The notes beneath the pieces were generated by a model. That model was not told the DNA's origin. It made no database searches and saw only the letters and a list, made by a program, of their open reading frames with translations. Made by a program: the position numbers and the translations under genes. This document shows, piece by piece, positions 7,533 to 32,620 of a stretch of DNA of 43,402 nt (positions are counted from its first letter, which is position 1; each line of letters opens with the position of its first letter). Location of the stretch: positions 1-43,402 of the IMG/VR virus record IMGVR_UViG_3300025853_000186, one strand, 5' to 3'. The DNA is from a virus.

Positions 7533-8921
7533 ATGCAGGGTTTTAGAATATTAAATCCAAACTTAGCACCACTTGCTAATCCTACAGTTGATCCTGGATT
7601 TAGAGATGATACAAGTATTCCTTCCTTTGACCCGATTTTAGAAGGTCTTCAAAATAAAAACTTTACAGCATTAAAGTTACCAAAGTATGTTTCTTATGAA
7701 GAACAAGTAGCTAAAGAAAAGGCTGCAGCAGCAGCAGCGGCAGCTAAAAAAGCTAAACAAAAAAGCGATCAGGGCAATACTCAAGTTGGTATTGGAAATG
7801 ATTACTGGAATGGTCAATACCAAGGGGATGGTGGCGGTTGGGATAATGAAGGTCCAGGTGATTTTGGAGGAGGCGATAATTACGGTGGCGGGGCTGCTGA
7901 AGATACTGATGATCCAATGGGTTGGTCATATGGCGGCACAATCCCACCTATGTATGCGTATGATGGTCTCACTAAACAAGAGCGAGATCGGATGGCTATC
8001 TTAGCGCAACAAGAAGCTGCTAAACCAAAAAGCACTTTTGACTTTACACCTTCAGTACCTTCTCTTTCTCAGTTAGCTGAAAATGCAAACAAGATAAAAG
8101 AAAATATTGGTGGAACTATATCAACAACTTCACAAAATCTTTTTAATACAGGCTCTGATATTTTAAAACAAGAGACTACTCCAAAGGCTATTCAAGATAA
8201 AGTATTTAATGCATTTATAACAGCAAGTTTAAAATCTAATCCATATACTGCTCCATTAGCTGCTTTTAAAACAGTTTATGATATAGCTCAAACAGTAAAC
8301 AATTATGCAGAAAATCAAAAAGATCAAACAGAAACGCTAGATCCTGGTTTTAATCCAGGATCAACTTACGAACCTTTGCCTTCTGAATTAAATACTGGAA
8401 TTACTAACCCTGCAGATTTTAATTTTAAAGACTTTAATTATGGCTATAATATAGATAATGTTATTGCTAATAATTATGATGCAATCCCTTCCGATTATTC
8501 AAGTCCATCTACTTCAGGCATAACTGAGTATGATCCTACTGCAATAAACTCTTGGGAAGATCTTGGTAGCTATATAAGTGCTGGTCTTCAGAACGACTAT
8601 GATTATGGTTTAACTTCAGAAGACACTAGCTATAATGAGAAAGTATCGCAAGCTTTAGCAGATGAGCTATCTAATCCTCCAACTTCAGGTGGCAGTAGTT
8701 TTTCAGGCAACAGTAGTGGCGGTGATAGCTGGGGCGATGGCGGTATGGGCTTTGATGCAAGTGATGCAGCTTCCGGTGCAGATGATCCTATGGGAGATGG
8801 CAGTGGCAGCTTTGGGGCTAACGATGATGATGATGGAGGGGATTATGATCCTTCTTTTAGCAAAGGTGGATATGTATACGCCTCACAAGGTGGCTATGTT
8901 AACTCAACAGGAGGGAAATAA
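7533..8921 (+). CDS. Putative internal virion protein with Gly/Asp-rich segments, 462 aa
   Basis: Starts one base after the upstream stop behind an AAAGGAGA ribosome site. Features in order: a poly-Ala run near residues 66-75, a Gly/Asp/Asn-rich segment near 85-130, a helical middle (about 150-290), a Tyr/Asn/Ser-rich section, and an acidic Gly/Asp/Ser tail. The terminal GGYVYASQGGYVNSTGG contains a short repeated GGYV motif that may be an assembly signal. No catalytic domain is seen. It is most likely a virion component by position. Confidence 0.55.
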   Translation: MQGFRILNPNLAPLANPTVDPGFRDDTSIPSFDPILEGLQNKNFTALKLPKYVSYEEQVAKEKAAAAAAAAKKAKQKSDQGNTQVGIGNDYWNGQYQGDGGGWDNEGPGDFGGGDNYGGGAAEDTDDPMGWSYGGTIPPMYAYDGLTKQERDRMAILAQQEAAKPKSTFDFTPSVPSLSQLAENANKIKENIGGTISTTSQNLFNTGSDILKQETTPKAIQDKVFNAFITASLKSNPYTAPLAAFKTVYDIAQTVNNYAENQKDQTETLDPGFNPGSTYEPLPSELNTGITNPADFNFKDFNYGYNIDNVIANNYDAIPSDYSSPSTSGITEYDPTAINSWEDLGSYISAGLQNDYDYGLTSEDTSYNEKVSQALADELSNPPTSGGSSFSGNSSGGDSWGDGGMGFDASDAASGADDPMGDGSGSFGANDDDDGGDYDPSFSKGGYVYASQGGYVNSTGGK

Positions 8922-11413
8922 TGCATAACATAAAAAGCATTACTCAAAAAGACCGTTATGGTAATATGTTTTCTCTCGAAATGTTTGAAGACCAAGGCAT
9001 ACCTATGCTAATGATGATTCCTGATATGCCTAATGGGTTTAACGGAGCAGACACAAACAATCATCCAGGGAAACCTAAAGGAACTGATACAGTACCTGCA
9101 TGGCTAACCCCTGGAGAAAACGTTGTTAATGCTGAAGCATCTCGTCTTCCTGGTAATCAAGAAAAAATTGATGCTATGAATGAAGAGGGTCGTGCTATAC
9201 AACAAGCGCAAGGTGGTCCTATTCCTACTTATGAAGCTGATGGTGGTAAGATACCGCTGATGTATTCAGCAGAAGGGACTACTGAAGATGATCTACTGCG
9301 TAGATTCCTTGAGCTAGAAGAAGGTAAGCGTAATACAGCATACCTAGACTCTGCAGGTGTACCCACCATTGGTTTTGGCAGTACTCGCGGTGTTCAAATG
9401 GGTGATAAGATTAATGATACGCAAGCTCGTCAAAAGTTAATGGCAGATATGCGTGTTGCAGAAGAAGATTATAACAAGTTAGTTACTGCTGATCTTAACC
9501 CTAATCAACAAGCAGCTGTTAAATCGCTTCTGTTTAATATTGGTGGACCACAATTTGCTAATAGTAAAGCACGTGCTGCACTTAATGCAGGTGACTTTGA
9601 TGCCTTTCAGAAAGAAGCTTCAGAGTTTCGTATGGCAGATAGTAAAGTTATTCCTGGTCTTGAAGCTCGTAGAGCTAGAGAAATGTCATTGTTTAATAAG
9701 CCAATTGCTCAAGCAGTTGCGGAACAACAAACAGCGGATAAGCCCTCTATTATACCACCAGTGGTAGGTATGCTTGGTGATCAAAAGGTTTACTCAGACG
9801 ATATGGGTGAATTTGTGATGACACCAGAAGGTGAGTCTTATCTTGATAATGATCAGCTTAAAGCTGCAGGGCTAGAGATTACGCCTGTACCACCAGTAGA
9901 TTTAAATGAGGCACCCCCAAAACTCTATAAAGAAATTTCTATTGGTCAAATTGATCCTTATACTGGCGAAGAAATTGTAACTGATTCAAAAGATCTGTCT
10001 GGTACAGCTATTCCACAATCAAAAGATGAGTATGAGCAATTAAAAGTAGCAATTGATGAATCTACTAAAGTGCCTGAAATTGAAACGCCTCCAACTCCAG
10101 AATACGATCCTGAAGCAACAGGCGAAGATCTTTCACCTGCCGATCAAGCAGCTGCGGATAAAGCCAAGGTAGCTGAAGATTTAGCTAAACAAAATCCAGC
10201 TACTAAAGATATAACTCAGTCTGATGAAGATGTAACAGGTGCAGGTAGAGATTTATTAACAAAAGATCCTACCTTTGCAGAGTCTATTACACAAGGGTTT
10301 AAAGACTTGTTTAGCGAGATGTTTGAGCCTAAAGAAATTGCTCGTATGATTGTTAATTATGCAGGTTCTCGTGCATTAGGCTATGATCATAGTACTTCTT
10401 TAAACTATTCAGCAAAGACTTATGTTAAAACAATTGCTGCTGACTTAGCTGCAAGGAAAAAGTTTATCACTAATAAAGATAACCTTGAAAACTTTACAGC
10501 TGAATCTCTTAAACGATACCAAGAAACAGGTGACATTGGTGTGCTAGAAGATAAAGGTGGTAGCGCTCCAAATTATAATCAGACTTCTGGAAATGCTTTT
10601 ATTAAGGGTATTGGTGTAGTTCAAAAGTTTAAGGATAGTAAGAGTGGTGTTGAAGCAGTTGAGTATAAAGGTAAACTGACACCAGTAACACACCCAGATG
10701 TTATTAAACTTATTGAACCTTGGAATGAAGGTGTTTATGGAGTTGCAGCAACTAAGAAAAGCTTTTTTGACTTTGCAAAAGGACAAGGTAGCTATTTAAA
10801 CAATGAAGCAGGATTAAAAACAGGAACTAAAAATGATACATCTTACGATGATCGAGTTGATTTTCCTGAAGAAAAACTAGCTCAAGAAGCTAATATTAGG
10901 TTTAGAGAAATACTAAAACAAAATGGTGCTTCAGTAAGAGATATTCCTGATCTTATGAATGATGTTAACTCTGCAATGAGCAGATTTATGGAAGATACTA
11001 TTGCCTATAAGCAAAAACGTAGAACAACGAAGCCTCTTTCTGTTAGAGCGTATATTAATGATTCTACAATAGAAGTATTAACCGATGTACCTCAAAGTCA
11101 AATAGGTGCAACATCAGTAAACAATACTAATGAGCTGAATAAACGGATTAAAGCTAGTATGAGAATTACAGACCCTAAAGATAAACGTTATGCAGAAGAT
11201 TACTACAATCAATGGCAAGCAACTTATCAGGCATACAGAGCATTACCGCTTGATGTTAAAAATAAATTTGTTGCTGATGCTGCAAAACAAATTGCAGATA
11301 ATCCAAAGGATGAAGCAAAACACTATAGTGGATTTACTTTATGGGCAAGTAAAACTTCTGATTCTGAAATAGCTAAGATTATTTCTGAATTAAAAGCAGC
11401 AGGAAAATTATAA
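8921..11413 (+). CDS. Virion protein with internal GH24 (T4-lysozyme-type) muramidase domain, 830 aa
   Basis: Likely virion-associated peptidoglycan hydrolase that opens the cell wall at DNA entry. The GH24 catalytic triad fits with exact spacing: E134 (LEEGKRN), D143 (YLDSAG) and T149 (PTIGFG) correspond to E11, D20 and T26 of T4 lysozyme. The domain spans roughly residues 122-265. The N-terminal TVPAWLTPGENVVNAEAS stretch resembles a motif seen in tail and core proteins that carry lytic domains. Residues 400-830 are helical and unassigned. The ATG overlaps the upstream stop (ATAATG). The size and the structural neighbourhood argue against a lysis endolysin, although a dual role cannot be excluded. 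Confidence 0.85.
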   Translation: MHNIKSITQKDRYGNMFSLEMFEDQGIPMLMMIPDMPNGFNGADTNNHPGKPKGTDTVPAWLTPGENVVNAEASRLPGNQEKIDAMNEEGRAIQQAQGGPIPTYEADGGKIPLMYSAEGTTEDDLLRRFLELEEGKRNTAYLDSAGVPTIGFGSTRGVQMGDKINDTQARQKLMADMRVAEEDYNKLVTADLNPNQQAAVKSLLFNIGGPQFANSKARAALNAGDFDAFQKEASEFRMADSKVIPGLEARRAREMSLFNKPIAQAVAEQQTADKPSIIPPVVGMLGDQKVYSDDMGEFVMTPEGESYLDNDQLKAAGLEITPVPPVDLNEAPPKLYKEISIGQIDPYTGEEIVTDSKDLSGTAIPQSKDEYEQLKVAIDESTKVPEIETPPTPEYDPEATGEDLSPADQAAADKAKVAEDLAKQNPATKDITQSDEDVTGAGRDLLTKDPTFAESITQGFKDLFSEMFEPKEIARMIVNYAGSRALGYDHSTSLNYSAKTYVKTIAADLAARKKFITNKDNLENFTAESLKRYQETGDIGVLEDKGGSAPNYNQTSGNAFIKGIGVVQKFKDSKSGVEAVEYKGKLTPVTHPDVIKLIEPWNEGVYGVAATKKSFFDFAKGQGSYLNNEAGLKTGTKNDTSYDDRVDFPEEKLAQEANIRFREILKQNGASVRDIPDLMNDVNSAMSRFMEDTIAYKQKRRTTKPLSVRAYINDSTIEVLTDVPQSQIGATSVNNTNELNKRIKASMRITDPKDKRYAEDYYNQWQATYQAYRALPLDVKNKFVADAAKQIADNPKDEAKHYSGFTLWASKTSDSEIAKIISELKAAGKL

Positions 11414-11419
11414 CACTAA

Positions 11420-11480
11420 ATCCCTAAGAGATCATTAACACGCCCTTATAGGGGTGGATCCCTTAGGGATACTTTATTTT
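11420..11480 (+). promoter_or_regulatory. Nested inverted repeats around the promoter; 5' leader hairpin or weak terminator
   Basis: ATCCCTAAG at 11420-11428 can pair with CTTAGGGAT at 11462-11470, enclosing the promoter. Alternatively ATCCC/GGGAT at 11458-11470 forms a compact hairpin, followed by the T-rich ACTTTATTTTT. The compact form could terminate transcripts from the lysozyme gene or cap the transcripts that start at 11451. A similar hairpin follows the promoter at 32092, which favours a leader role. Confidence 0.45.
11434..11450 (+). promoter_or_regulatory. Putative phage RNA polymerase promoter (rightward), +1 at about 11451
   Basis: Seventeen bases, ATTAACACGCCCTTATA, followed by GGGG. 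The layout (AC-rich recognition block, TATA, then GG at +1) mirrors T7-type promoters, and nearly the same sequence occurs at 36319-36335 on this strand and at 32109-32093 on the other. It lies in the 80-base gap before the nuclease-headed ejection protein. The matching polymerase would be the 712-residue enzyme encoded at 19687-21804. Confidence 0.65.
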
Positions 11481-11493
11481 TATGGAGGCTTAT

Positions 11494-14400
11494 ATGGCTA
11501 CTAGGCATGAATCAGAAGCTGAAAACACTGCCAAAAACGTACGCAAAAGATTTTTAAAAGGTGCTGACGGAAAGTCGTACGAATGGCTAGACGCTGACTC
11601 TGTTGTAGCTGAAGGTGATGACACTACTATACGACTTAAAGGGTTTAATGCTGCTGAGACTAGCAAGATTATTGATCGGGATGGTGAACTTCGTTTTGTA
11701 CAAGGTCAACTTGGTGCTAAAGAACAAACAGAAGCTATTGCAAATATAGCAGAAGCTGGCGGCTTTAATATCTTTCAAGATACAGGTGAGTTAGACAGCT
11801 ACGGACGCCGATTAGGTACCTTTGTAAATGAAGATGGTGAAGATTTAACTGAAGCAGTTTATTCTTCTGGTTTAGTAGATGTTAATTTATTTACAGATCA
11901 AGAAGGAATTGATGCGGCTAGACGTGGACGTCTACAAGAACAATTACGGGGTACTCGTGGACGTTTTGGCGACATTGTTGATAATGCAATGGGTGATCTT
12001 AAGTATGCGCCTGTTATGTTTAAAGAAACCGCAACAAATGAAAGAGAATACCTTGACTCAGTAATCGAAGTAGTTGCAGAACAAAAAGGGCTTAATCTTT
12101 ATGACGAAGATGAGTATCGTCAAGCATATAACACAGCTATTTCTGGTAATTACGACACGCGTAGTGTTCCTTTTGCAGCAATTGATTTTCGTTATGGTGA
12201 TCGAACTAAAGAAGGCGTAGCATACAATCAGATGACAGAGTCATGGAACACTGGTTGGAAAGGAATGTCAACTGCGTTGTATGGTTTTGCAGAGTTAATA
12301 GGCGTTGAGCTTGGTAGCGATACAATTAAAAATTGGGGCGCGGAAAATGTTGAACAAGCAAAAGATGATCTTGCAAACTCTCCAATACTACGGAACGTTG
12401 ACTACCGGGATGTAGATGGTGTATGGGATGCATGGGAATTCTTTACTAATAATATGGCTATGTCGGCACCTTATCTAGTTACATTAACTGCAGGTCATGT
12501 ATTATCGCCAGTAACTTTCGGTGCATCAGTACCAGTAGCTTACGGTTCTATTCTCGGTACCCATGCAGGTAATGTTTGGAACGATATTGAAGGTCCAAAG
12601 GGTCGTAAAGAAGCATCAGGCGCGATTATCGCGGGAACAGCTATGGCTGTACTAGATCGTATTGGTATGAAAGCTATTATGAAGCCTTCAACCTTGCTTA
12701 CTAAAGAAGGCAGATTGCAAGTTGCTGCTGCTTTAAAGAAACAAAATCCAGGAATGACTTCTGCACAAGCATTAGCTCTTATTAATAAAGAAACAAAGTC
12801 TGTTATTAAAGGTGCTATTGAAGGCATGGGTAATTTTTCTGCTGATCACATTAATAACAGTGCTATTATTAAAGAAGTACTTAAGGGCGCTGGTCGTTCT
12901 GGAGTTATTGAAGGTGTAACAGAGGCTTCTCAAGAAGGTTTAGGTTATTTATCTTCTAAAGCAATGTCAGAAGGTGGACTCAAAGAGAACTTTAATCCTA
13001 ATGAATTCTCAAATATTCTTGCATCATCTGCAGTTGCGGGTGGCGCGTTAGGTACAGGCTTCGGTGGGGCCGGTCAAATAGTAGAAGCTGGCGATCGCTA
13101 TGCTATGCAAAAAGGTTTAATGCTTGGTCGTGTTGATAAGCTAAACCCTTATGATCAACTAAGCCAAGATCTAGGAAAACAAGGTTCTGTATTTAATATT
13201 ACTGAAGAAGCAAGAGCCGCTACGCTTAACCAATCAGGTGGAACTAAAGCAGCACAACGTGCTAGGCAAGGTGAAAAAGCAAGAGGTAATATTTGGTCTA
13301 AGCTAAAAGATCCTACAAAGTATATGCCAGAGCTTTATCGTGCAGCAGCTACGACTGCGTTTAGACCTGAGCTATTGAGAAGATCAGCTGCTGCTAGAAA
13401 GCTTTATGCATTAGTAGGCCAGCCATTAGGTCGTTTATATTCGGGGCGTGACGTACAAGCACAAGAAGCTAAGTATCGTGGGGATATGCTAGGTACTATT
13501 AATCCTCAAAGAGTATTTAAACGCTTTGGAATGGCTGATCGTGTTAGTAACTCTAATAAAATATCAAATATGATTAGACGATTTTATATTGCGGGTGGAG
13601 ATCCGGTAGCATTAGCTGACGACAAAGAAGTAATGGAAAACTACGAAGCAATTGAAGCTACTATTAAAGAATTAAAATTATTCTCAGCTATGTCTTATGC
13701 TTTAAAAAATGATAATTATAAAGCACAAGGTAATAACCGTGATAATTTAGCTGCAGATCCAGATGCTTGGTTTAATGATCAAAGTTGGGACTGGCAAAAG
13801 GTGCGTGATAATCGTGAAGCATGGTTTGATTGGATGCGTAAAAATGCTTTAGATAAAGACGGTAATCAATTGTATACTGAAAATGAATTGATAGAGTTAT
13901 ACAATAAAGTATCTAATAATGAAGATGCTACTGATTTTTCTATTGTTGAAGGCATTGAGTATATCCCTGGAGCAGGAAAAGGTGGAACAGAATTGTTATC
14001 ATCTAAACCTGGTTTCGAACAGTTTGCTAATACAGATATAATACAAAATGCAATTAGCACAGCAAATCAAACTGCTAAGTATGCTGCCTATACAGAATAC
14101 TTTGGTGCTGGCGGTAAGTATCTTGATTATCTATTTAATCAAATGGAAAATGAAGGACTTACTCGTGAAGAAATAGCTGAGATGGCTTATCATACTAAGA
14201 GCATTATTGATGCTGGCACAGGTAATTTTAAGTCTATTAAGAATAGAAAGCTTGCAGCGTTTATGCGTACAGCTACATTTTATACTTCGATAGTAGGCTT
14301 ACCGCTTGCAGCGTTTAGTTCATTACCCGAATTTATTATGATGATATATCAAGCTCGTGGAATGAACGACATTAATAGAGCCATTAATATTTTTACAGGT

Positions 14401-15549
14401 GAACTAGTAGGAGCGTTAAAACAAGTAGCTAAGATGAAAATACATCCTTCGTTAGCTAATGTTCCGCTAGGAAATATTTATAGAAATAGTACAAATAAAC
14501 TAATTAGCAGTGGTTTATTTCCAGATGATGCCACAGTAGCTACTCGCTATGGATTAGGTGAGACTGATATTAGTAAAGCTTGGTATCAAAAAGCTTTCTT
14601 TAAATGGACTGGCATTGCCGGAATAACTCAGCTTCAAAGATCAATGGCTGCTGCTGCAGTCTCTGGTTTTGTTTCTGATAGAATTAAAATCCTAATGGCT
14701 AGAAAAGAAGGTACACCTTATAATCAAGATCAGCTAGAAATATACCGGCAGTTAACTAACTTAGGTATGGATGTTGAGAAGTATATCCGAATACAACGCA
14801 AGTATAATTCTAACTATAAAGATTCAGAAGGCAAAACCAGATTTGATAGGCTTATGGATGAAGCTGAAATGGGTGGAGAAATTACTAGCGATATTGATTT
14901 TGTAAAAGATCAGCTAGATACTGTTACTTGGTATTTTACTAATGATCGTATTCAAAACCCGCAAGCGTATAATAGACCTTTGTTCTTTCAAGATCCTCAC
15001 TTCCAATTGTTTGTTCAATTCAATGGATTTATTTCTACTTTCACTGCAAACGTAGTGCCTAAACTTTGGAATGATTATCTTAAGAATGGAAGTCCACGTA
15101 TGAAATATAATACATTTGCACTAGCGGTTACAATGATAGCTGTTGGTGGAGCTTCTCAATGGCTTAAAGATTATATTAAGTTTGGAGGAAGCACTCCGTA
15201 TCTTAATGATGCACAACTTGTGCAACGGGCAATCATGTCTTCAGGTATACTTGGTTCAGCTGAAAGAATAGTACAAGGTGTAGCGCCAATGTATTCTGAT
15301 CGTAATGAAAATATCGTTAGTCGTTTATTTGGTGAAACAGTAGGTGGTGCGCCAACAGTGAGACTAGCAGACACTGCAAGAAAAGCTTTAGTTGAAGCAG
15401 CTTCAGGGGATTATCCAGGTTTCTTAACTCAGACAGGAAAACTATTACCTGTTGGCGGTGCAGTAACACCCGTAAGAAATGTATTTAAAGACTTAATGCA
15501 AGGTCAAGCGCCATCTAAGTGGCCATTTGATCAAGACACAGGAGAATAA
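11494..15549 (+). CDS. Large ejection (internal virion) protein with N-terminal staphylococcal-nuclease-like domain, 1351 aa
   Basis: Residues about 18-130 fit the SNase (thermonuclease) fold with its catalytic spacing: R47 (IRLKG) and E55 (NAAETSK) are eight apart like R35/E43 of SNase, and R105 follows SYG like R87 in KYGR. The rest is a long helical protein with hydrophobic stretches near 325-360 and 915-950, typical of podoviral ejection proteins. I chose ATG 11494 over 11482 because GGAGG at 11484-11488 is then a proper ribosome site. It could act on DNA at entry, or the domain may be a structural or binding relic. Downstream is the putative virion polymerase, three bases away. Confidence 0.7.
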   Translation: MATRHESEAENTAKNVRKRFLKGADGKSYEWLDADSVVAEGDDTTIRLKGFNAAETSKIIDRDGELRFVQGQLGAKEQTEAIANIAEAGGFNIFQDTGELDSYGRRLGTFVNEDGEDLTEAVYSSGLVDVNLFTDQEGIDAARRGRLQEQLRGTRGRFGDIVDNAMGDLKYAPVMFKETATNEREYLDSVIEVVAEQKGLNLYDEDEYRQAYNTAISGNYDTRSVPFAAIDFRYGDRTKEGVAYNQMTESWNTGWKGMSTALYGFAELIGVELGSDTIKNWGAENVEQAKDDLANSPILRNVDYRDVDGVWDAWEFFTNNMAMSAPYLVTLTAGHVLSPVTFGASVPVAYGSILGTHAGNVWNDIEGPKGRKEASGAIIAGTAMAVLDRIGMKAIMKPSTLLTKEGRLQVAAALKKQNPGMTSAQALALINKETKSVIKGAIEGMGNFSADHINNSAIIKEVLKGAGRSGVIEGVTEASQEGLGYLSSKAMSEGGLKENFNPNEFSNILASSAVAGGALGTGFGGAGQIVEAGDRYAMQKGLMLGRVDKLNPYDQLSQDLGKQGSVFNITEEARAATLNQSGGTKAAQRARQGEKARGNIWSKLKDPTKYMPELYRAAATTAFRPELLRRSAAARKLYALVGQPLGRLYSGRDVQAQEAKYRGDMLGTINPQRVFKRFGMADRVSNSNKISNMIRRFYIAGGDPVALADDKEVMENYEAIEATIKELKLFSAMSYALKNDNYKAQGNNRDNLAADPDAWFNDQSWDWQKVRDNREAWFDWMRKNALDKDGNQLYTENELIELYNKVSNNEDATDFSIVEGIEYIPGAGKGGTELLSSKPGFEQFANTDIIQNAISTANQTAKYAAYTEYFGAGGKYLDYLFNQMENEGLTREEIAEMAYHTKSIIDAGTGNFKSIKNRKLAAFMRTATFYTSIVGLPLAAFSSLPEFIMMIYQARGMNDINRAINIFTGELVGALKQVAKMKIHPSLANVPLGNIYRNSTNKLISSGLFPDDATVATRYGLGETDISKAWYQKAFFKWTGIAGITQLQRSMAAAAVSGFVSDRIKILMARKEGTPYNQDQLEIYRQLTNLGMDVEKYIRIQRKYNSNYKDSEGKTRFDRLMDEAEMGGEITSDIDFVKDQLDTVTWYFTNDRIQNPQAYNRPLFFQDPHFQLFVQFNGFISTFTANVVPKLWNDYLKNGSPRMKYNTFALAVTMIAVGGASQWLKDYIKFGGSTPYLNDAQLVQRAIMSSGILGSAERIVQGVAPMYSDRNENIVSRLFGETVGGAPTVRLADTARKALVEAASGDYPGFLTQTGKLLPVGGAVTPVRNVFKDLMQGQAPSKWPFDQDTGE

Positions 15550-15551: not shown

Positions 15552-18500
15552 ATGGCACCTAGAAGTGTTCAAAGAAATGCTGGCTTAAACTTTTTTGATA
15601 AACGTAGACAAGAAAAGTTAGCAGCACAAACTGAAACTACAGCACAAGCACAACGCACTGCAGAAACAGAGCGCGCTTCGGCTATCGCAGATGCTCAAGC
15701 AACTCAGGCAACATTAGAAACTCCTGTAGAAACTTTGCAAGCAGCAATGCCAATGACACAAGGAGACCCTACAGGCGCTGAAACGTTTGTAGGAGACTCA
15801 CCTGAAAATATCATGCCTCGTGAACTATCTCCAACTGTGGAGATTGACCCAACAAGAACAATGGAAGACATTGCTGATGTTCCAATGCGACAGTATCAAC
15901 AAGCAGGCATTGTTCCAGACCCTTCTCAAGATGTAGAAAGCCTTGCTACACTTGAAGAAAAAGAAGGGCTTGCTATAGATACGCTATCAAGCGAAGCAAG
16001 TAGCGTTAGGCCAATACTTGCCGATCAACCAACTACTGATCTGTTTACACAAGCAGTAGATGATTATGTAAGCTCAGAAGTCGGTAATGATGATGGTTTT
16101 GTTAGCTTTAAAAGCTTAGTTGATCTTGGAAGCAAAGCTTTGCGTACTGACTCTGGCGGTTTTAATATCTTAGGCTCAGATATCGATGTATCTGGTATCA
16201 GCGATAGCGAGCTTAGCACAGATCCGCAAGGGGTTATCTATCGTAATTCAGATACAATAATGAATGCTTTAAAAAATAATCGAAAGCTAGATCTATTGGA
16301 AGATAACCTTGATCCTACTTCTCAAATTAAACCAGAAGCGGGTCGTGCTGCGATGATGGCTGTCTTAATTGAACTTTCAAATAAGATGGAATTAATTAAC
16401 AGTGAAGCTGATAAATCAGATGATGAACGACAAAACACAAATGGTTTAGATCGTATTATGTTAGGCAGTTCCGTTGGTCGTACATTTGAAAGATTATTAT
16501 ATCCTACTGAAATGGAAAACCCACAAGAGCTTTTCAAGGGCGAAGCGGAAAGATATGGTTATCAATATCGTTTAGAGCCAGCAGAAGCATCTCTATTAGG
16601 TCAAGCATTATTGCAAGGCTTTGTTGATATGCGAGACAATAATCTTGTTCAATCTTTTAGTAGCATTGGCCCAGATGGAAAACCAAAGGTTAGCTTTAGA
16701 ACAACTCGTGAAGGGGATGCTAGGCTATCTGCTATGCGTAGAGGTATTCGACAGCAGCTAGGCATGAGCGCAACAAAAAGTAAACCTGTTTCAACTGTAT
16801 TAACTAAAAATGGAATGTTGAGAGGCGAAGGTGCGTCTACACAAAATGAAATTACTCGTGGTCCTCTTAAAAATAAAAAGACTAAGATAATTGAAGATGG
16901 CGTATCAGCACTTGCTTCGGTATCACATACAGTAGCACCTCATGCCGCAACTTTATTTGCCGGTGTTTTAAAAGCAGGAGAAAAATACTCAGAGGGTGTC
17001 TTTGCAGATGTAACTAAACAAGGTTCTACCTATTTTGAAAATAAAAGAGATGAACTATTACGTGACTACCTTGCTAAAGCAAAATCAATGGGCTTAAAGC
17101 CGGGAGACTTAGGGAGTTATCGAAAACCTGATGGGCAGCTTGTACCATACGGTCAAGGGCTTATTGGTATGGGTAATCTCACTGAAGAACAACGGTTAAT
17201 AAAAGGATTTGAGCAAGCAGCTAGGATCGAAGCAAAACGAATACAACAAAGTCATTTAAGTGAAAGACAAGATACGTTGCTTGATGGTTTTAACCGTGTA
17301 AATAGTTCTTTTTATTATGGGTATACAGTAATTAATAATTCTTCACGCATGATGATTGCTAACGATGAGCTTAACTATCAGTCTAGTAAGTTAGCTCGTT
17401 TTTTAGTAAGTGGAACTCTACCTTCTTTGTTTAGTAAAAATAAAGATGGTGGGGCTGCAGCCCTAAACTCAGCAATTAAAAAGCTAGAGAATAATACTAA
17501 TAAGGCTCCTGGTGATAAAGGATATCAACGACTTACTACTGAAGAAGGTTTTTTCAGAGTAATTGCAAGATCAGTTGTTGTCGGTGCAGATAAGCTATCT
17601 CCAGCAGATCAAGTAAAAGCATTGCAGTTAGATCTAGTAACAGGTAAAGACGGTCCTAATGGTGGTCCAGCTATGCGGTATATTAAATTCGGTAGGCAAT
17701 TGATTGAGTATACACAAGCAAACGCTGACTACCATAATCAGGTACAAGCAGCCATTAACGCCCGTCAGCCAGTTCCTGAAGCTCCCGAATTACTTTTAAC
17801 ACAAGATCTAAACGATTTCTTGGCTTTGCATAATAAAAATGATACTTTTTATTTTGCATTAGATGCATTGCATGAGCTTGCAAGATATCACAGTACTCCT
17901 AAAGGTGAAAAGTTTGGATCAAGAGTTAAAGCAGAGATAGATGGTAACTCTAACGGTGCAGTTATCCAAGCTTATCAAATGGGTGTCGAGAATATTCTTA
18001 AACGTGGTGGTGTTTTATATGCTAAGATTGGATCCAAAGGAACCGCTTTAAAGAAATTAGGTCCAGATCAAAGTTTAACCGATCTTACTCGCGAAGAAGC
18101 TGAAGAGTATGAATTAGACATTCGTGAAGATGTGTTCAGTGTAATGGCATCACAACCCTCCGTAGCTAAGGACTTGAATTGGTCTGCCGCATTTGATGCT
18201 ATTGGTAGGGACTCTACGTTAGTTAAAAAGCTAATGAAGTTACCAATTATGACATCTATTTACGGTAAAGATCCTAAATTCCATAGTGATACTGCTAAAA
18301 AGTTTATATCAGATAACCCTAAAATATTCTCAGCTATGCTAGCAACAGGTAACTTAACTAATGCACAGCTAGAAGAGCAGTTAACTAAACACCTAGAAGT
18401 TGGTTTAACTCTAGGTCTTGGTGGCGCGCTAGACCATCAGCGTATCGCTAAACGCAATGGTAGAGCGCATGTTTTTGGCAATGAAATCTTTGTTATGAAA

Positions 18501-19376
18501 GGTGAAAATGGATGGGATATTCAAGCCGGTGGTATTGAATATATACCAAAAGATACTTTACCTCGTATGGCAAGTCGTAAAGATAAAACTAATTTAGTTA
18601 CTTTCGGCCCAGGAGCTAGACGTAATGTAGCTGATATTACTGTTACAGAGCCTCGCTCATCTGCTGCTGTTAGAAATACCCCTAAATATGTAGGTGAGGG
18701 TAGCTACTCTAAAGCAGAGATCGGTGGCAAGCTTATGAATCAAGCGGCAGTAAACGCTACTCAAAATATTGATGCTACGGTTGCACAGTTAACCGTAGCT
18801 AGTGTAGTTAATCGTAGGCCTAATGGTTTAGTTATGCAAGTCTATGATGCATTCATGGGTGACTCAACAACTTTTGCTGATCTTGAGAATACAGCTAACA
18901 CTGTTTTTGATAAAGTAAACCAAAGCTATAATATGCTCGAAGAGGAATTAAAAGCATTTGATCAGATGGTAGCTAGGGTTAAGCAAAAAATTGCAGAGAA
19001 AAGAAAGACTGGAGATACTTTTGATATTGGCACTGAAGGCGAATACAAAGGTATGGGTGATTTTGTAAACACTACACCAGATGGTACCCGCCGTTGGGCA
19101 GCTATTATCGGTAAAGATATGATTGATGATTCTGAAAAGAAAAGAGCTATTGCAGCTGCTTCGGAGTTAATAAATCAAATTGTAGATTTACTACCCCCAG
19201 ACACTATGCTAGGTGATCGCTCAGTTAAAATTTCAGCTGATGCATATGAAGCTTTATTTGAAGGTGCTATTGAAGTGCTTAAAATTAGAAGGGATTTAGT
19301 TAATCTTATAGCTAAAACAAATAAACAGCGTAAAGAGCTTAATAGTAAGCCACGGAAACGTGGTCAATACAGCTAA
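15552..19376 (+). CDS. Putative virion RNA polymerase (N4-type single-subunit RNAP) in a 1274-aa ejection protein
   Basis: All four motifs of single-subunit RNA polymerases appear in order. A T/DxxGR-like block (YYGYTVINNSSRMM, R599) is followed by NYQSSKLARFLVSG, matching NFQGSDIARGQLLFANG of this phage's other polymerase. Motif A is EIDGNSNGAVIQAY (D797). Motif B is KLMKLPIMTSIYG (K896 and Y904, eight apart as K631/Y639 in T7). Motif C is MQVYDAFMGD (D1099), preceded by NATQNIDATVAQLTV, which resembles the NFVHSxD helix. The A-B and B-C distances (99 and 203) are close to T7 (94 and 181). Residues 1-160 are Gln/Ala/Thr-rich and probably disordered. Position after ejection proteins fits an injected enzyme. 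Motif calls were made by eye. Confidence 0.72.
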   Translation: MAPRSVQRNAGLNFFDKRRQEKLAAQTETTAQAQRTAETERASAIADAQATQATLETPVETLQAAMPMTQGDPTGAETFVGDSPENIMPRELSPTVEIDPTRTMEDIADVPMRQYQQAGIVPDPSQDVESLATLEEKEGLAIDTLSSEASSVRPILADQPTTDLFTQAVDDYVSSEVGNDDGFVSFKSLVDLGSKALRTDSGGFNILGSDIDVSGISDSELSTDPQGVIYRNSDTIMNALKNNRKLDLLEDNLDPTSQIKPEAGRAAMMAVLIELSNKMELINSEADKSDDERQNTNGLDRIMLGSSVGRTFERLLYPTEMENPQELFKGEAERYGYQYRLEPAEASLLGQALLQGFVDMRDNNLVQSFSSIGPDGKPKVSFRTTREGDARLSAMRRGIRQQLGMSATKSKPVSTVLTKNGMLRGEGASTQNEITRGPLKNKKTKIIEDGVSALASVSHTVAPHAATLFAGVLKAGEKYSEGVFADVTKQGSTYFENKRDELLRDYLAKAKSMGLKPGDLGSYRKPDGQLVPYGQGLIGMGNLTEEQRLIKGFEQAARIEAKRIQQSHLSERQDTLLDGFNRVNSSFYYGYTVINNSSRMMIANDELNYQSSKLARFLVSGTLPSLFSKNKDGGAAALNSAIKKLENNTNKAPGDKGYQRLTTEEGFFRVIARSVVVGADKLSPADQVKALQLDLVTGKDGPNGGPAMRYIKFGRQLIEYTQANADYHNQVQAAINARQPVPEAPELLLTQDLNDFLALHNKNDTFYFALDALHELARYHSTPKGEKFGSRVKAEIDGNSNGAVIQAYQMGVENILKRGGVLYAKIGSKGTALKKLGPDQSLTDLTREEAEEYELDIREDVFSVMASQPSVAKDLNWSAAFDAIGRDSTLVKKLMKLPIMTSIYGKDPKFHSDTAKKFISDNPKIFSAMLATGNLTNAQLEEQLTKHLEVGLTLGLGGALDHQRIAKRNGRAHVFGNEIFVMKGENGWDIQAGGIEYIPKDTLPRMASRKDKTNLVTFGPGARRNVADITVTEPRSSAAVRNTPKYVGEGSYSKAEIGGKLMNQAAVNATQNIDATVAQLTVASVVNRRPNGLVMQVYDAFMGDSTTFADLENTANTVFDKVNQSYNMLEEELKAFDQMVARVKQKIAEKRKTGDTFDIGTEGEYKGMGDFVNTTPDGTRRWAAIIGKDMIDDSEKKRAIAAASELINQIVDLLPPDTMLGDRSVKISADAYEALFEGAIEVLKIRRDLVNLIAKTNKQRKELNSKPRKRGQYS

Positions 19377-19427
19377 AAAAAATACCCCACAGGGAATCCT
19401 TAACGGAAACCTTGTGGGGTATTTTTA
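19376..19427. terminator. Bidirectional intrinsic terminator between convergent clusters
   Basis: A run of A, then ATACCCCACA (19382-19391) pairing perfectly with TGTGGGGTAT (19413-19422), extended by GG/CC with one bulge, then TTTTT. The A tract on one side and T tract on the other make it functional in both directions. It sits exactly between the stop codons of the late plus-strand and early minus-strand clusters. Confidence 0.92.
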
Positions 19428-19428
19428 T

Positions 19429-19677
19429 TTATAGTTTAAGACCATTATCTTTAGCAGCCTTCATAGCCATGCTACGCCGTTTATCCGCTTCGTGTTTGGC
19501 TTGAGTTTCACTCATACCAAGCTCGATATATCCTGCAACATTTTCAGCGTGTACTTTGTCGAGCATAGCTCGATTAAAACCTTCAGCACCAATTAAATCA
19601 TCGGAGATTCCTAACTCTTTATAATCAATATCTGAAAAGTTTTTGCCTGTTTGAGCAAGCCAATTTTTGTCTTCCAT
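19429..19677 (-). CDS. Hypothetical protein, 82 aa
   Basis: Last gene of the minus-strand cluster, just downstream of the RNA polymerase, with a strong AGGAGG site eight bases before the ATG. It is mainly helical and charged, with an Ala/Glu/Lys-rich C-terminal half (ETQAKHEADKRRSMAMKAAK). No family recognised. Transcription ends at the adjacent bidirectional terminator. Confidence 0.75.
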   Translation of the reverse strand: MEDKNWLAQTGKNFSDIDYKELGISDDLIGAEGFNRAMLDKVHAENVAGYIELGMSETQAKHEADKRRSMAMKAAKDNGLKL

Positions 19678-19686: not shown

Positions 19687-21804
19687 CTAGCAGAAGAAAT
19701 AGTCTGATTCAAGTACACCTTTAACGTTTAGCGTACCAATCGTAGGCACAATGCCTTGATAGTCCTTACCAAAAGGAATACTATCATAGAAGTTTTCTTT
19801 GTCGTACATTGATACGAACTCTCTTCGTGTGTTATTCATTAGTAGCTCGATACTACTGGCATGAGTACTGTATGAGTCATGTACAGCACCGAAGTCACCT
19901 TCCCAATCAGCTACTACAAGAGCCATGTGAGATGCATCCATGCTATGCACAAAGTTAGGACTGATACCACACATAAAGCCACGTCTATCAGGGATGTCTG
20001 TTTTCTCTCTGATGACATGCTTAAATCGTATCTCACCTGCAGGGGTATTAAACCCATAGCAGTCTACCTTAACAGGTCTTGTACGGTAGCACTCATACAC
20101 TACAGGGAATCCTGATGGTGTAGTCCACTCGATACCTTGTCCTCTATCAGTACCGTATTGCTTGTACCAGTTAGTGATCTCTTGATCAGCAAGCTTCTGC
20201 AAGTACCGCATAGTCTCTAGCGGTCCAGGGCATACTTCCTGGATAGCCCGTATGACTTGGCTGCTTAACTCATCACAATCCCAAGTACTGATGTTGTACT
20301 CAGTAGTAAAACCGAACTGATAACAATCACTGTACATTGACTCAGACATTTTCTTTTGTCCGCAGCTATAAGCACGAGTCATGGCACCACGTTTTGCAAT
20401 ACCTTTACGGATATGCTTCATAGGCATCTGTCTTTCTTCAAACCATTCAGGCATACGCTGAGTGAGTCGCTTAGCTACCTGGACGTAGAAGTCGTTTTGA
20501 ACCTCAGTAGGTATTAATCCTACGAGGTTGCCCGTCAGGGCATCCTTAGACATAGCGCCTAGGTGTTGCCATCCGTTGTTGGCACCGTCAATAGGGATAG
20601 GCAGGTGTGTCAAGAAAGTACCTTCTGATTTTGAGTACTTATACCACTCAATACAACAAGCTAGAAACGAAATAGCTTTTTCTGCATCATGTGCAATAAT
20701 ACCCATCTCGCCTAGCTCTAGAATGTCATCAATATTTTCTTGAGTCCATTGCGCTCTATCTTCGAGTGTCATTTTGTCTACTGAGATAGTATCGAGTTCT
20801 TCTTGCTCGAGTACACTACGGTAGTCTGTAGTTACCCAGTCAGGGATCTCATCGATACCGTATGATTGATTAAAACAACAGGCAGTATGCACACCTAACC
20901 AGAAGCTAGCAGTGCTATCGAATGGTTTACCGTTAGCAAAGAGTAGCTGACCCCTAGCTATGTCAGAGCCTTGGAAGTTAAAGAATGGCTCTGAGTAATA
21001 CAGCCTACCTCGATAATCAGCATCAAGATAAAAGCTAAACTCAGTGTCTAACCACTTGTTTGCCACAGCCATTACTTCTTTTACTTCTCTATTCTTAGAA
21101 GCTTGGCGTTGGTATAACTTATCGTTCTCTTTAGTGTCTTCACCATCAAACACTTCAGTCTTTATGAATGAATCCCAATGCTGTAGTATAGCGTTGTGAA
21201 CATCCTTATTAATAAGCCAGCGAGTGGCTTGCAGCTTATCGATTGCCTTTACAAATGGCGCTGTCTTGTGTTTAATAAACTTATATTCTTTAGATTTATC
21301 CCAAGTTTTAATAACACTTCGACCATTAGCTTGTATTAATGAAGTAATAGGTTCAATCGGCTCTGCTGACATGCATACAGTACGCCCAGCAATGGCTTCC
21401 ATTTCACCCCACTTATCAGTAGCATGTATTGTTACTGGTTTACGGCTTTTCATGTGGCCTACTGAAATAGTAAGATAACCACACATAACAAAGCCTTCGA
21501 TAACTAAGTCACCAACTCTAACATGATCCCTGAAATTAACATTATTACTATCCCAGCCTTCGATAATATATTTACCGATAGCCATTGATGCTTGAGTAAT
21601 AGCTGTTTCACCTTCCGTTTTACTACGTTTAAAGCAACGTTGAATAGTCTTTCTAGCAAAAGACACCATGTCTTCGATAAGAAAGTCTAGCATGTCAACA
21701 CCATCAGTGTCAATCATACGCATTAGTTGTAAGTTACGCCTTGGCTTGACACCTAAGTCTTCACCGCGAATTTTCTTCAGGAGATAGTCCTTCACATCTT
21801 CCAT
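19687..21804 (-). CDS. Single-subunit (T7-like) DNA-directed RNA polymerase
   Basis: Transcribes phage genes from phage-specific promoters. Motifs (numbered from an upstream in-frame ATG at 21825): DYRGR at 270-274, motif A IPIDGANNGWQH (D413), motif B GIAKRGAMTRAYSCG (K478, Y486), NFVHSMDASH, and motif C AVHDSYSTH (D650). All catalytic residues are present. At about 705 residues it is shorter than T7 RNAP (883), with most of the loss in the N-terminal promoter-binding and RNA-exit domain. ATG 21804 has a better ribosome site (AAAGAGAAATCG) than 21825, but either could be used. It lies at the distal end of the early cluster, so something else must transcribe it first. Confidence 0.95.
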   Translation of the reverse strand: MEDVKDYLLKKIRGEDLGVKPRRNLQLMRMIDTDGVDMLDFLIEDMVSFARKTIQRCFKRSKTEGETAITQASMAIGKYIIEGWDSNNVNFRDHVRVGDLVIEGFVMCGYLTISVGHMKSRKPVTIHATDKWGEMEAIAGRTVCMSAEPIEPITSLIQANGRSVIKTWDKSKEYKFIKHKTAPFVKAIDKLQATRWLINKDVHNAILQHWDSFIKTEVFDGEDTKENDKLYQRQASKNREVKEVMAVANKWLDTEFSFYLDADYRGRLYYSEPFFNFQGSDIARGQLLFANGKPFDSTASFWLGVHTACCFNQSYGIDEIPDWVTTDYRSVLEQEELDTISVDKMTLEDRAQWTQENIDDILELGEMGIIAHDAEKAISFLACCIEWYKYSKSEGTFLTHLPIPIDGANNGWQHLGAMSKDALTGNLVGLIPTEVQNDFYVQVAKRLTQRMPEWFEERQMPMKHIRKGIAKRGAMTRAYSCGQKKMSESMYSDCYQFGFTTEYNISTWDCDELSSQVIRAIQEVCPGPLETMRYLQKLADQEITNWYKQYGTDRGQGIEWTTPSGFPVVYECYRTRPVKVDCYGFNTPAGEIRFKHVIREKTDIPDRRGFMCGISPNFVHSMDASHMALVVADWEGDFGAVHDSYSTHASSIELLMNNTRREFVSMYDKENFYDSIPFGKDYQGIVPTIGTLNVKGVLESDYFFC

Positions 21805-22027
21805 CGATTTCTCTTTTCCAAACATCTATGCCCCAAGTGGGTGCGGGTGGATTATATAGTACTTGTTGTGAACAAGTGATAGGGTCGTAGTTAGGCTTGA
21901 CTGCGATAAGTAATTCAAATTCCTTTTCTGGAAACATATCTCTTACTTGTTCTAAGTCTTCCCGATTACATTCAACCCAAGCAACATAATCAGGCATATT
22001 ATCTATTCTTTGGTAATGGATTTGCAT
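21761..22027 (-). CDS. Hypothetical protein, 88 aa
   Basis: Overlaps the end of the dCMP deaminase gene by 25 bases and the start of the RNA polymerase gene by 44 bases. The product (YVAWVECNREDLEQVRDMF, then a hydrophobic strand and a Pro-rich segment) looks globular but matches no family I know. A second in-frame ATG eleven codons later is a possible start. Overlaps suggest translational coupling with the polymerase. Confidence 0.6.
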   Translation of the reverse strand: MQIHYQRIDNMPDYVAWVECNREDLEQVRDMFPEKEFELLIAVKPNYDPITCSQQVLYNPPAPTWGIDVWKREIDGRCEGLSPEENSR

Positions 22028-24512: not shown

Positions 24513-24708
24513 ATCGAGCTTCCTTCCTTCGGTTTCTAGCTCTATCTGATTTAATTAGCTTTTCAGCTTTCTGTTGCTTGTTATTAAACATATCTAACAA
24601 GTCTTCATCCCAATCATCTTCAGTTACTTCTGATTTTTCTGCAGGAATAACTTGATGTTTCCTAATATCATTATGATAAGGATTGCGAATACGATTTGGC
24701 GATTTCAA
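24481..24708 (-). CDS. Hypothetical charged protein, 75 aa, probable TTG start
   Basis: The frame has no early ATG. The plausible start is TTG at 24708, seven bases after a GGAG site inside the end of the GIY-YIG gene. The product is highly charged: an acidic patch (EDDWDEDLLDMF) followed by a basic tail (KSDRARNRRKEARYAKENR). It overlaps the primase-helicase start by 32 bases. Function unknown; a DNA- or helicase-binding adaptor would fit the charge pattern, but that is speculation. Confidence 0.6.
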   Translation of the reverse strand: MKSPNRIRNPYHNDIRKHQVIPAEKSEVTEDDWDEDLLDMFNNKQQKAEKLIKSDRARNRRKEARYAKENRLYGE

Positions 24709-25303
24709 TTTGTCTCTCCATGTCTCTCATAGCAGGTTTAAATCTAATTTCATGTACCCACTTGTTATACCAATCATCACTGCATAGCGCATGAGTTGTG
24801 ATAATCATAAATGCTTCTAGATAACTCAAGTCACCTTTCATAGGACAAGAAAACAAGATATCAAAAGAAAAGTTATCATGCCCTTGTTCTTTAATAATTT
24901 CATTGAGTTCACTGCTAGAACTAGTGTATGCTTTCCAGCTAGTATGTAATGTTTTTACGCCTACATAGCGCTGCTTAGTAGTCTTATTAGTAATCACATA
25001 AAGAAAGCCATGATCAGACTCATTAAACAACTCAGGATGTAGTACATTCCAATGGCTCTCTACCTCAATGTGACCTCGCACATCATCTGCAATAGTTGGT
25101 GTAGTGCCACTTAAAAAGTATATTGTGATTGGACCTTTAAATCCTTTCTTTAGTTTAAAGCGAGACTTGTTACGTCTCTTGCAACGAATCTCACCATGCT
25201 CTTTAGTAATAATGCCACACCAATCGTTATTATCGAACTGAGTGACACGCTCTACCTGAACGTTATGCCAACGCTCATGGTTATTAAATCGCAAAGAAGT
25301 CAT
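24671..25303 (-). CDS. GIY-YIG-like endonuclease, 210 aa
   Basis: Residues about 98-170 match the GIY-YIG nuclease core in variant form: LYVITN (Y102) and RYVG (Y113, G115) replace the two signature triplets, followed by WKAY and SSSSELNEIIKEQG, then the metal-binding Glu in LSYLEAF (E163). The N-terminal 95 residues are a separate, basic, beta-rich domain (CKRRNKSRFKLKKGFKG) that may contact DNA. No T7 endonuclease I gene is visible, so this enzyme could be the junction resolvase or a host-DNA nuclease, but a free-standing homing endonuclease is equally possible. Start follows AAGGAAAC. Confidence 0.72.
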   Translation of the reverse strand: MTSLRFNNHERWHNVQVERVTQFDNNDWCGIITKEHGEIRCKRRNKSRFKLKKGFKGPITIYFLSGTTPTIADDVRGHIEVESHWNVLHPELFNESDHGFLYVITNKTTKQRYVGVKTLHTSWKAYTSSSSELNEIIKEQGHDNFSFDILFSCPMKGDLSYLEAFMIITTHALCSDDWYNKWVHEIRFKPAMRDMERQIEIAKSYSQSLS

Positions 25304-26191: not shown

Positions 26192-27991
26192 CTAATGAAC
26201 GTCTGCGTAACAGCTACCAATGACACCATCGCCATCCATACACTGTACATTAAAGTCTTTAGGTGCTTCTCTAAATGACTCAACACAGATTTCTTTTACT
26301 CTTTCTGCGTCAGACTCTTTAGCTACCCATGCCATCTCATCGTGATAAAATATAACAGGGTAAGCATCTAAGTTTTCTTCTTTTATTTTATCCATTGCAT
26401 AACCAATAGCTGCCTTACAAGTAATAGCCTCAGCTGATTGCAATAGATAGTTTAAAGATTGATGAGCGCTACCAACATACACACGGCGACCATCAAGAGC
26501 AGGAATGAAAGCATCGCCATATCCGTTGCGAGTTTGCTGGAATATCGTATCCAGCTTCGCCTTAATGCGTCCGAGTCCTGGTATTGCTGATTGATACTTT
26601 CGTTTGGAAGCGTCCCCTGCTGTCGCATCCGGCTTACCTGTGAGAATAGTGCCAAGCTTTTTACCACCGCCACCAAACAGATAAGCATACAACCAGCGCT
26701 TAGCATCACCTCTGCTACTATTGAGGATACTTGCGTTATAGCTGTGAATGTCTCCATCCGTTACCTCCTTTGTGAATGCGTCATCACCAATGTAATGACA
26801 TAATGCTCTCATTTGATTACCAGCTGAGTCAGCACCAACTACTTTATAGCCATCTTCACAGATAAAGAGACTACGCATCTCTTTACCCCAAGCTGCCTCA
26901 ACACTAGGTAAGTTAGTGATCACTTCGTGTCTGGCTCTGTATGTAGGCGTACCGATAACCCACATCCTTCCGTGTAGCCTGTTGCCTTTAATCTCTCCAA
27001 GCCAGCCTTCGAGAATAGACCTACGCGATCTTGTTGTGTAGTATCTGTCGATATCTTGTCCGATGTCTCCGAGTAAAGATAAGCTCGTTGTTGTGAGTTT
27101 CGGGCTTGTCTTATGGAATTCATAACCGACTTTCTTGTAGTTCCAATCATCTGGTTTCCATCCTATAGTGTAAAGATATTCTTTGACTTCTTCCATGTTA
27201 CCAAGTGTTACTTGGGTTTGATAACTACGCTGGAATTTCTTTTCAGGTGGCCACTCCATTTCATCAGGCTCTTCACCAAGATACTCAGTGAGTAACCGCT
27301 TAGTGACAGCAGTAAACTTACCTGCTTTAGTGTACTTAGCAGTCTTAGGCTGTTTATCCACCCAGATAGTCATTTCCGGTAATAATGGATGTACTCTATT
27401 CTCGATAGCTTCTAGCTCACTACACATTTCTTCGTGTAGTTTGTTAGCACCCTCAAGATCAAACAGCCAGCCATTCATTCGTACTCTAGCTTCGAAGACA
27501 GCAGCCTGATGCTCTGCCCTTAAACCCTTAGCAATCAATGGCTTAGTACTGCTTTGTTCCATGAACTCTTTCATTAATAGCTCATAGACTTTTGTGTTTA
27601 ACTCAACGTCTCTTACACAGTATGTAAGCATTTCCTCTGTGAACTGTGACCAGTCACTGAATTCAAACTTACTGTAACCAAGATGTTCACCCCATCCACC
27701 TAAACCATGTTTATGCTTTCGCTTATAGCAAAGTACTTGACTCATAATCCAAGTGTCATAGAGTTTCTTGTCAAGAAGATTAGTACCATATAGCTTATCA
27801 AGTACAGCAGCGTCATAGCCAATGATGTTATGGCCTATTAATGCTTCTGCATTGAGAAGAAATGAAAGGCCTGAGTCTATATCATCAGGCTTCCACTTGT
27901 ATATCTTCTTAGTTTCTACATCTTGTGCTACGATACACCAGACTTGAGTAGCATCAATGCCATCAGTCTCGATATCGAATACTAGTTTCAT
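26192..27991 (-). CDS. DNA polymerase, family A with 3'-5' exonuclease domain (T7 gp5-like)
   Basis: Replicative polymerase. Proofreading domain: FDIETDG (D6, E8), GHNIIGYD (about 53-60) and YCVRDVELN (D128). Polymerase domain: motif A VVGADSAGNQMRALCHY (D388), motif B RGDAKRWLYAYLFGGGG (K431, Y436) and motif C FYHDEMAW (H550, D551, E552). All catalytic residues are present. It has 599 residues against 704 in T7 gp5; the stretch between exonuclease and palm is short, so a thioredoxin-binding loop may be reduced or absent. No thioredoxin gene is seen in the window. Confidence 0.96.
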   Translation of the reverse strand: MKLVFDIETDGIDATQVWCIVAQDVETKKIYKWKPDDIDSGLSFLLNAEALIGHNIIGYDAAVLDKLYGTNLLDKKLYDTWIMSQVLCYKRKHKHGLGGWGEHLGYSKFEFSDWSQFTEEMLTYCVRDVELNTKVYELLMKEFMEQSSTKPLIAKGLRAEHQAAVFEARVRMNGWLFDLEGANKLHEEMCSELEAIENRVHPLLPEMTIWVDKQPKTAKYTKAGKFTAVTKRLLTEYLGEEPDEMEWPPEKKFQRSYQTQVTLGNMEEVKEYLYTIGWKPDDWNYKKVGYEFHKTSPKLTTTSLSLLGDIGQDIDRYYTTRSRRSILEGWLGEIKGNRLHGRMWVIGTPTYRARHEVITNLPSVEAAWGKEMRSLFICEDGYKVVGADSAGNQMRALCHYIGDDAFTKEVTDGDIHSYNASILNSSRGDAKRWLYAYLFGGGGKKLGTILTGKPDATAGDASKRKYQSAIPGLGRIKAKLDTIFQQTRNGYGDAFIPALDGRRVYVGSAHQSLNYLLQSAEAITCKAAIGYAMDKIKEENLDAYPVIFYHDEMAWVAKESDAERVKEICVESFREAPKDFNVQCMDGDGVIGSCYADVH

Positions 27992-32092: not shown

Positions 32093-32109
32093 TATAAGGG
32101 TGTGTTTTA
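32093..32109 (-). promoter_or_regulatory. Putative phage RNA polymerase promoter (leftward), +1 at about 32092
   Basis: Read on the minus strand: TAAAACACACCCTTATA followed by GGGGG. Fourteen to sixteen of the seventeen bases match the two plus-strand copies at 11434 and 36319. It lies between two early genes and would let the phage polymerase reinforce the replication genes downstream. The near-palindromic CCCTTATAGGG core makes the strand ambiguous, but the AACACAC flank fixes the direction. Confidence 0.65.
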
Positions 32110-32466
32110 AGAGATACCTACGTTTGTTTCTTCTTCGTATACTTCCATATCACTCATATCGAGGTCAACGGTTAGGTAAACGCGTCCTTCGGTGAAAGAT
32201 ACGTCAACTTCTATTGGTGAATCATCAAGGTATGCCTTAATAGTGTCACTGTCATGGTACTCTAAGAGTTCTTTAACGTGTAGTATGGCAGCTTCGTTGT
32301 TAGAGGATAGCTGAACAAAGTTGTAGCCATAGTCTTCTATGCCCCACTGAGTATTATTGAGCGTAGAGAAGACGAGGTTTATTTCGAAGTCTTCGCGGTA
32401 TGTAACGTAGCGACCTGCTTCGATGGTTATTGAGGTGTTACGCTCTGGTGAGTCTGAGATAATCAT
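32107..32466 (-). CDS. Hypothetical acidic protein, 119 aa
   Basis: GAAAGGAAC precedes the ATG. Beta-rich with strong acidity in the last third (YLDDSPIEVDVSFTEGRVYL, DLDMSDMEVYEEE). No domain recognised. Its 3' end overlaps the promoter region at 32093-32109 by three bases. Confidence 0.7.
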   Translation of the reverse strand: MIISDSPERNTSITIEAGRYVTYREDFEINLVFSTLNNTQWGIEDYGYNFVQLSSNNEAAILHVKELLEYHDSDTIKAYLDDSPIEVDVSFTEGRVYLTVDLDMSDMEVYEEETNVGIS

Positions 32467-32479
32467 TGTAGTGTTCCTT

Positions 32480-32554
32480 TCAGTTTGAGAAGAATAGTAT
32501 TATTACTATTAGTGGAATTACAGTCCATAGTATTGTTTGAAGTAACCAGTTCAT
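32480..32554 (-). CDS. Possible 24-aa hydrophobic peptide
   Basis: Opens MNWLLQTILWTVIPLIVIIL and ends FFSN: a nearly pure single membrane span. No ribosome site lies at normal distance (GGAG is 24 bases upstream), so it may not be translated. It is listed because a second 24-residue hydrophobic frame lies just upstream. Confidence 0.35.
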   Translation of the reverse strand: MNWLLQTILWTVIPLIVIILFFSN

Positions 32555-32593
32555 TTTGACATATAGCGGTAGTGCTACTCCTTTATTAAAAAT

Positions 32594-32620
32594 TAGTGAC
32601 TTAACCACTGTTGCAGTTAA
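32594..32620 (-). terminator. Weak hairpin, possible terminator or processing site
   Basis: On the minus strand CTTAAC and GTTAAG pair across a 12-base loop (itself able to add TG/CA), followed by TCACTAATTTTTAAT. The stem is short and AT-rich, so termination would be partial at best. It separates the nucleotidyltransferase transcript section from the acidic-protein genes. Confidence 0.3.

Follow-up and report, generated by a model that had tools for sequence, protein, structure and literature searches.

The open reading frame at 15552-19376 (+) of the window, by which we mean the whole 43,402-nucleotide stretch of DNA analyzed here, begins with ATG and encodes a 1274-aa single-subunit RNA polymerase of the N4 virion RNA polymerase (vRNAP) type. 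The window is a 43-kb record, possibly incomplete, from a small aquatic bacterial virus. An earlier note on this DNA had proposed an N4-type polymerase here, and the assignment is now supported by a family of homologs, profile comparison, a fold match over the whole length, and a phylogenetic tree. We consider it likely that this compact enzyme is packaged in the virion, injected, and used to read the early genes, after which a T7-type RNA polymerase (RNAP) encoded by the same phage would transcribe the middle and late genes.

Searching Pfam, PHROGs, NCBIfam, PDB sequences, and phages (by tblastn) with single sequences or HMMER did not bring out the relationship to N4. The Pfam RNA_pol model gave a sub-threshold match at residues 761-807 (E = 0.05), and the ORF had no match in PHROGs, among annotated phages by tblastn, or among the sequences of solved structures. 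No cellular or prophage copy was confirmed in the bacterial and archaeal genome collection. IMG/VR was scanned twice, and contigs sharing the promoter described below were searched as well, which together yielded 14 long metagenomic homologs besides near-identical copies. Where measured, their identity to the ORF product is about 35-51%, with two members (L078 and L079) being more divergent.

No N4 sequence went into the family profile, which with 13 members matched 12 profiled Schitoviridae vRNAPs at P = 2.8e-14 (score 135) and with 15 members matched the N4 family at P = 7e-15; against the N4 profile, the reversed profile and six other proteins of the window all scored below 26, i.e., at noise. 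This HMM-HMM comparison had been proposed in the earlier note as a check. The profile alignment pairs N4 R424, D559, R666, K670, and Y678 with R599, D797, K892, K896, and Y904, and another profile match, colinear but weak, aligns N4 D951 with D1099. In addition, the stretches ExDGxxNG and KxPxxxxxYG are common to the vRNAP family and the N4 vRNAPs. Compared directly with T7-type RNAPs, the family profile gives no significant match (P = 0.11 to 0.99); a joint profile of the family and N4 matches them with P = 4e-9, covering all motifs. In a maximum-likelihood tree of the three groups, with T7-type RNAPs as the outgroup, the family (98/98) and the Schitoviridae vRNAPs (95/99) are sister groups, the former lying outside the clade of the latter, with long branches between the T7-type RNAPs and the vRNAP family flagged by the tree program.

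The six catalytic residues (R599, D797, K892, K896, Y904, and D1099) are kept in 15 of 15 family members, except that Y904 is replaced once by F, a substitution also found in the Schitoviridae DEV and LUZ7; the motifs are therefore not a matter of chance. These residues occupy common columns in a MAFFT alignment of 33 polymerases (15 family members, 12 Schitoviridae vRNAPs, and 6 T7-type RNAPs), and the T7 catalytic residues share computed alignment columns with those of the ORF. The alignments place the motifs in the order that the earlier note had read from the sequence. The T/DxxGR-equivalent motif, NNSSRMMI (17334-17357, +), lies within INNSSRMMI and carries R599, the counterpart of N4 R424, with SGTGRM in its place in one divergent member. 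It is followed by motif A, EIDGNSNGAVIQ (17934-17969, +; D797, equivalent to N4 D559 and T7 D537), motif B, KLMKLPIMTSIYG (18225-18266, +; K892, K896, and Y904), and motif C, MQVYDAFM (18834-18857, +; D1099, equivalent to N4 D951 and T7 D812). The K896-Y904 spacing of 8 residues, the A-B distance of 99 (797-896), and the B-C distance of 195 (904-1099) are also, as had been claimed, near those of T7 RNAP, namely 8 (K631-Y639), 94 (537-631), and 173 (639-812).

Structure prediction, the other check that had been suggested, gave a complete single-subunit RNAP, and not the palm-less structure that would have counted against the proposal. The AlphaFold2 model (pLDDT 73, pTM 0.69) was template-free, used the family alignment only, and covers residues 172-1274 (16065-19373, +). 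The best solved structures found by Foldseek were yeast mitochondrial RNAP, N4 mini-vRNAP (2po4, 3c3l), and T7 RNAP (E ~1e-11). VIA-align gave Z 17.6 over 532 residues for T7 (1s76), Z 17.4 over 715 residues for yeast (6ymw), and Z 14.4 over 756 residues for N4 (3c46), with model residues 1-1103 lying on N4 61-1061. The palm-fingers-thumb fold thus matches N4, T7, and mitochondrial RNAPs over the whole length, and because of this superposition the modeled residues 172-1274 are all predicted to be polymerase, with nothing left to form an N4-like C-terminal domain (CTD). About 170 residues precede the polymerase domain.

The vRNAP gene ends a rightward structural block, following an 830-aa virion protein with a phage lysozyme domain (8921-11413, +; domain and PHROG searches) and a 1355-aa ejection-type virion protein (11482-15549, +) that shares its operon, so that its reported location among ejection proteins holds. 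It is convergent with the gene of a non-virion, single-chain, 712-aa T7-type RNAP (19687-21825, -; Pfam and PHROG searches, relatives), a terminator-like inverted repeat with A/T flanks lying between the two (19375-19429). In relatives, the vRNAP gene likewise stands directly behind a virion/ejection protein, and the T7-type RNAP gene is always convergent. The T7-like replication background noted before was also found, consisting of a T7-type DNA polymerase, a primase-helicase, an exonuclease, and the single-chain RNAP. The nearest cultured phage is Roseobacter phage CRP-7 (PMC6918029), a non-schitovirus to which the portal (55% identity), terminase (61%), DNA polymerase (37%), and RNAP (34%) of the window can be matched, and whose gp34 is related to the 1355-aa protein over its full length (hhalign P 2.6e-34); Schitoviridae genomes, with their N4 hallmark gene set, have ~70 kb, and the window, which may be incomplete, has 43 kb.

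Several other features of the window were observed. Within the same phages, divergence is much more rapid in the vRNAP gene (35-47% identity) than in the genes for the T7-type RNAP (76-89%) and the DNA polymerase (26192-27991; 82-88%). A ribonucleotide reductase large-subunit-like frame at the left end (55-1329, +) is probably cut by the end of the record; the reductase genes of CRP-7 stand among its structural genes. The protein encoded at 24671-25303 (-) matches a PHROG named NAD synthetase as well as homing endonucleases, and its identity to relatives jumps from ~30% to 70%, as expected for a mobile or exchanged gene.

The sequence AAACACACCCTTATAGGGG occurs at 32107-32089 (-), 36321-36339 (+), and 11436-11454 (+), with 0.01 matches expected, and places a T7-type promoter (ACACCCTTATAGGGG) ahead of three transcription units: the replication/RNAP (middle) genes, the terminase large subunit, and the ejection protein and vRNAP genes, which thereby have a promoter in common with the terminase unit. 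With TATAGGG where transcription presumably starts, its core resembles T7-class promoters, and all relatives covering the ejection operon have the promoter there. At this operon, the promoter sits in the loop of a predicted terminator-like hairpin (11419-11470, +; arms 11419-11432 and 11457-11470) with a T-rich tail, while the other two copies have no hairpin. The same arrangement is present in relatives L003-L012, L017, L022, L069, L073, and L074, in which the arms score 10-15, compared with a mean of ~5 for shuffled flanks, and a T-rich tail comes after them. Between phages, the arms covary (CCCTAAGAGA/TCTCTTAGGG, CCCTTGGGA/TCCCAAGGG, and CCCTAGAGAT/ATCTCTAGGG). They were checked sequence by sequence instead of on the promoter alignment, in which they were misaligned and for which RNAalifold gave a different, weak structure. 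We also considered ACACCCTTATAGGGG as the promoter of the vRNAP itself. This is less likely, as the sequence is T7-like and stands at middle and late units, and it is nearly invariant among phages whose T7-type RNAPs are 76-89% identical but whose vRNAPs share 35-51%; it is thus presumably read by the 712-aa T7-type RNAP.

The minus-strand genes at 32107-36353 form a putative early region of ~4 kb with no T7-type promoter inside; they are likely the early genes and the likely template of the vRNAP. Their products may include an ssDNA-binding protein of the Gp2.5 type (E = 1.2e-5) and a DNA-binding regulator. Hairpins of the N4 type, with 3-nt loops and stems of at least 6 bp, are not enriched in the window (12 vs. 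12.8 expected), and one in the early region (34291-34307, loop GTG) was set aside as an N4-type promoter for want of further support. The best conserved non-coding element of the region, 52 nt at 34500-34551 (-), is 90% identical in relative G014, with a compensatory stem change, and can be named a candidate early promoter with low confidence. At 34490-34562 (-), the element corresponds to L053:7122-7200 (-); in this relative, another near-copy lies in tandem with it. Its 14-nt core, TAGTACCACTTTGG, is repeated in the window ahead of the terminase gene (36303-36316, +). As a repeated early promoter, however, TAGTACCACTTTGG was rejected: despite the two copies in the window, G014 is the sole independent relative carrying it, and the remaining matches are same-species copies or unrelated sequence.

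In the mechanism that we favor, the vRNAP would be a catalytically competent enzyme comprising little more than the polymerase domain, made late from the T7-type promoter together with the large ejection protein. It would then be packaged, injected with the leading DNA, and transcribe the minus-strand early region at about 32.1-36.3 kb in the next cell, handing over to the phage T7-type RNAP, which would use ACACCCTTATAGGGG promoters to transcribe the middle and late genes. We infer the enzyme activity, its late timing, injection, early-gene specificity, and the pairing of promoters with polymerases; packaging and early use in the next cell are suggested by the placement of the gene with late ejection genes, by its promoter, and by analogy with N4, whose vRNAP is an ejected enzyme reading early genes (PMC4496689, PMC12633501). 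In the N4 vRNAP, the N-terminal domain (NTD) is the part that binds the membrane, while the CTD keeps the polymerase restrained (PMC12633501); according to unpublished work cited in PMC4496689, the NTD is required for injection and the CTD for encapsidation. The absence of such domains here, and of recognizable N4-type promoter hairpins among the stems scored, counts against this mechanism. The 1355-aa neighbor was considered as a carrier of either function and rejected, as no similarity to the N4 NTD or CTD was found in it. Whether the whole transcription program dispenses with host RNAP, the packaged compact vRNAP serving early and the phage's own T7-type RNAP serving middle and late, is to us an evenly balanced question.

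The lack of the N4 domains credited with injection and encapsidation would also fit an active N4-type RNAP that is made late but left unpackaged and acts within the cell that produced it, e.g., in late transcription or priming, with host RNAP reading the early genes as in T7. Two sigma-70-like sites in the early region score 10/12, as this reading would have it, but such sites are not in excess (10 found vs. 13 expected); host promoters may nevertheless be present in the early region. The operon shared with the ejection protein, and the late units already having promoters that fit the T7-type RNAP, further argue against it, and we regard it as unlikely. Still less probable is a polymerase fold recycled as a structural ejection protein with loss of enzyme function: the gene's position is indeed that of large ejection proteins, and it does evolve much faster than the phage's other enzymes (35-47% identity, the T7-type RNAP having 76-89%), but the six catalytic residues were kept while most of the sequence changed. 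A divergent T7-type RNAP, e.g., a duplicate of the phage's own, without particular kinship to N4 vRNAPs, would account for T7 and mitochondrial RNAPs matching the model with Z scores at least equal to that of N4, but it is the least probable reading given the 1e-14 profile match to N4 with none of significance to T7, the sequence stretches common with N4, and the tree, long branches included, that joins the family to the N4 vRNAPs.

If the packaged, injected vRNAP is correct, a polymerase could work as an ejected virion enzyme without the giant N- and C-terminal domains, and a much smaller enzyme would be available for structural work. Virion transcription would also extend to another type of podophage, an abundant one, with a two-polymerase relay in ~43 kb in a small T7-like lineage. 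A sister lineage that keeps essentially the polymerase alone would bear on why N4-type vRNAPs are so large.

N4-type vRNAPs have been described as a hallmark of Schitoviridae (PMC10654107, PMC7650795), nearly always accompanied by a heterodimeric middle RNAP (PMC4496689). Their genes may have been glimpsed outside this family before, since contigs with vRNAP as the sole hallmark and sequences from outside Schitoviridae carrying no more than two hallmarks have been mentioned (PMC10654107); a partial literature search turned up no publication in which a compact N4-type vRNAP is combined with a T7-type RNAP. A concrete prediction follows for a protein of a cultured phage, CRP-7 gp33, a 1235-aa hypothetical protein (L015:9660-13367). 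Its gene lies beside that of gp34 and converges with the T7-type RNAP gene, as the vRNAP gene does here. The protein is probably a very divergent vRNAP homolog, judging by this position, a weak colinear profile match to the family (P about 5e-4 to 7e-4), and motif B-like ARGLVVAGLYGK and motif C-like VAIHDAL sequences. BLAST detected no significant similarity between gp33 and the vRNAP, the catalytic Lys position looks like Arg, and the structure model (pLDDT 34) was unusable.

Compared with known systems, the polymerase domain, the six catalytic residues, and the sequence profile are those of N4 gp50 (mini-vRNAP 998-2103) and other Schitoviridae vRNAPs, and the gene setting is also N4-like, with the vRNAP beside ejection proteins and a second phage RNAP present. 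By contrast, the N4 vRNAP has ~3500 aa with a membrane-binding NTD and a large CTD, whereas the 1274-aa protein, one third as large, has neither; the second RNAP of N4 is the heterodimeric RNAPII (gp15/gp16), whereas here it is one T7-type chain, in a 43-kb genome whose vRNAP belongs to a separate sister clade. N4 early promoters are hairpins of 5-7 bp with 3-nt loops, and none was recognized here among the stems of at least 6 bp scored. Host RNAP is used late in N4 and early in T7, whereas the proposed relay would do without it. T7 RNAP and the Autographiviridae RNAPs share the single-subunit fold and all catalytic residues with the vRNAP, and a T7-type promoter is present in this genome, but they lack a significant direct profile match, and the true T7-type RNAP of the window is encoded by another gene. 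The tail-tape-fused RNAP of P23-45 and the virion RNAPs of the jumbo phages phiKZ and AR9 likewise pair an early virion RNAP with a non-virion RNAP (PMC10770324, PMC7598289), but these virion enzymes are kin to cellular RNAPs, and not of the T7/N4 type.
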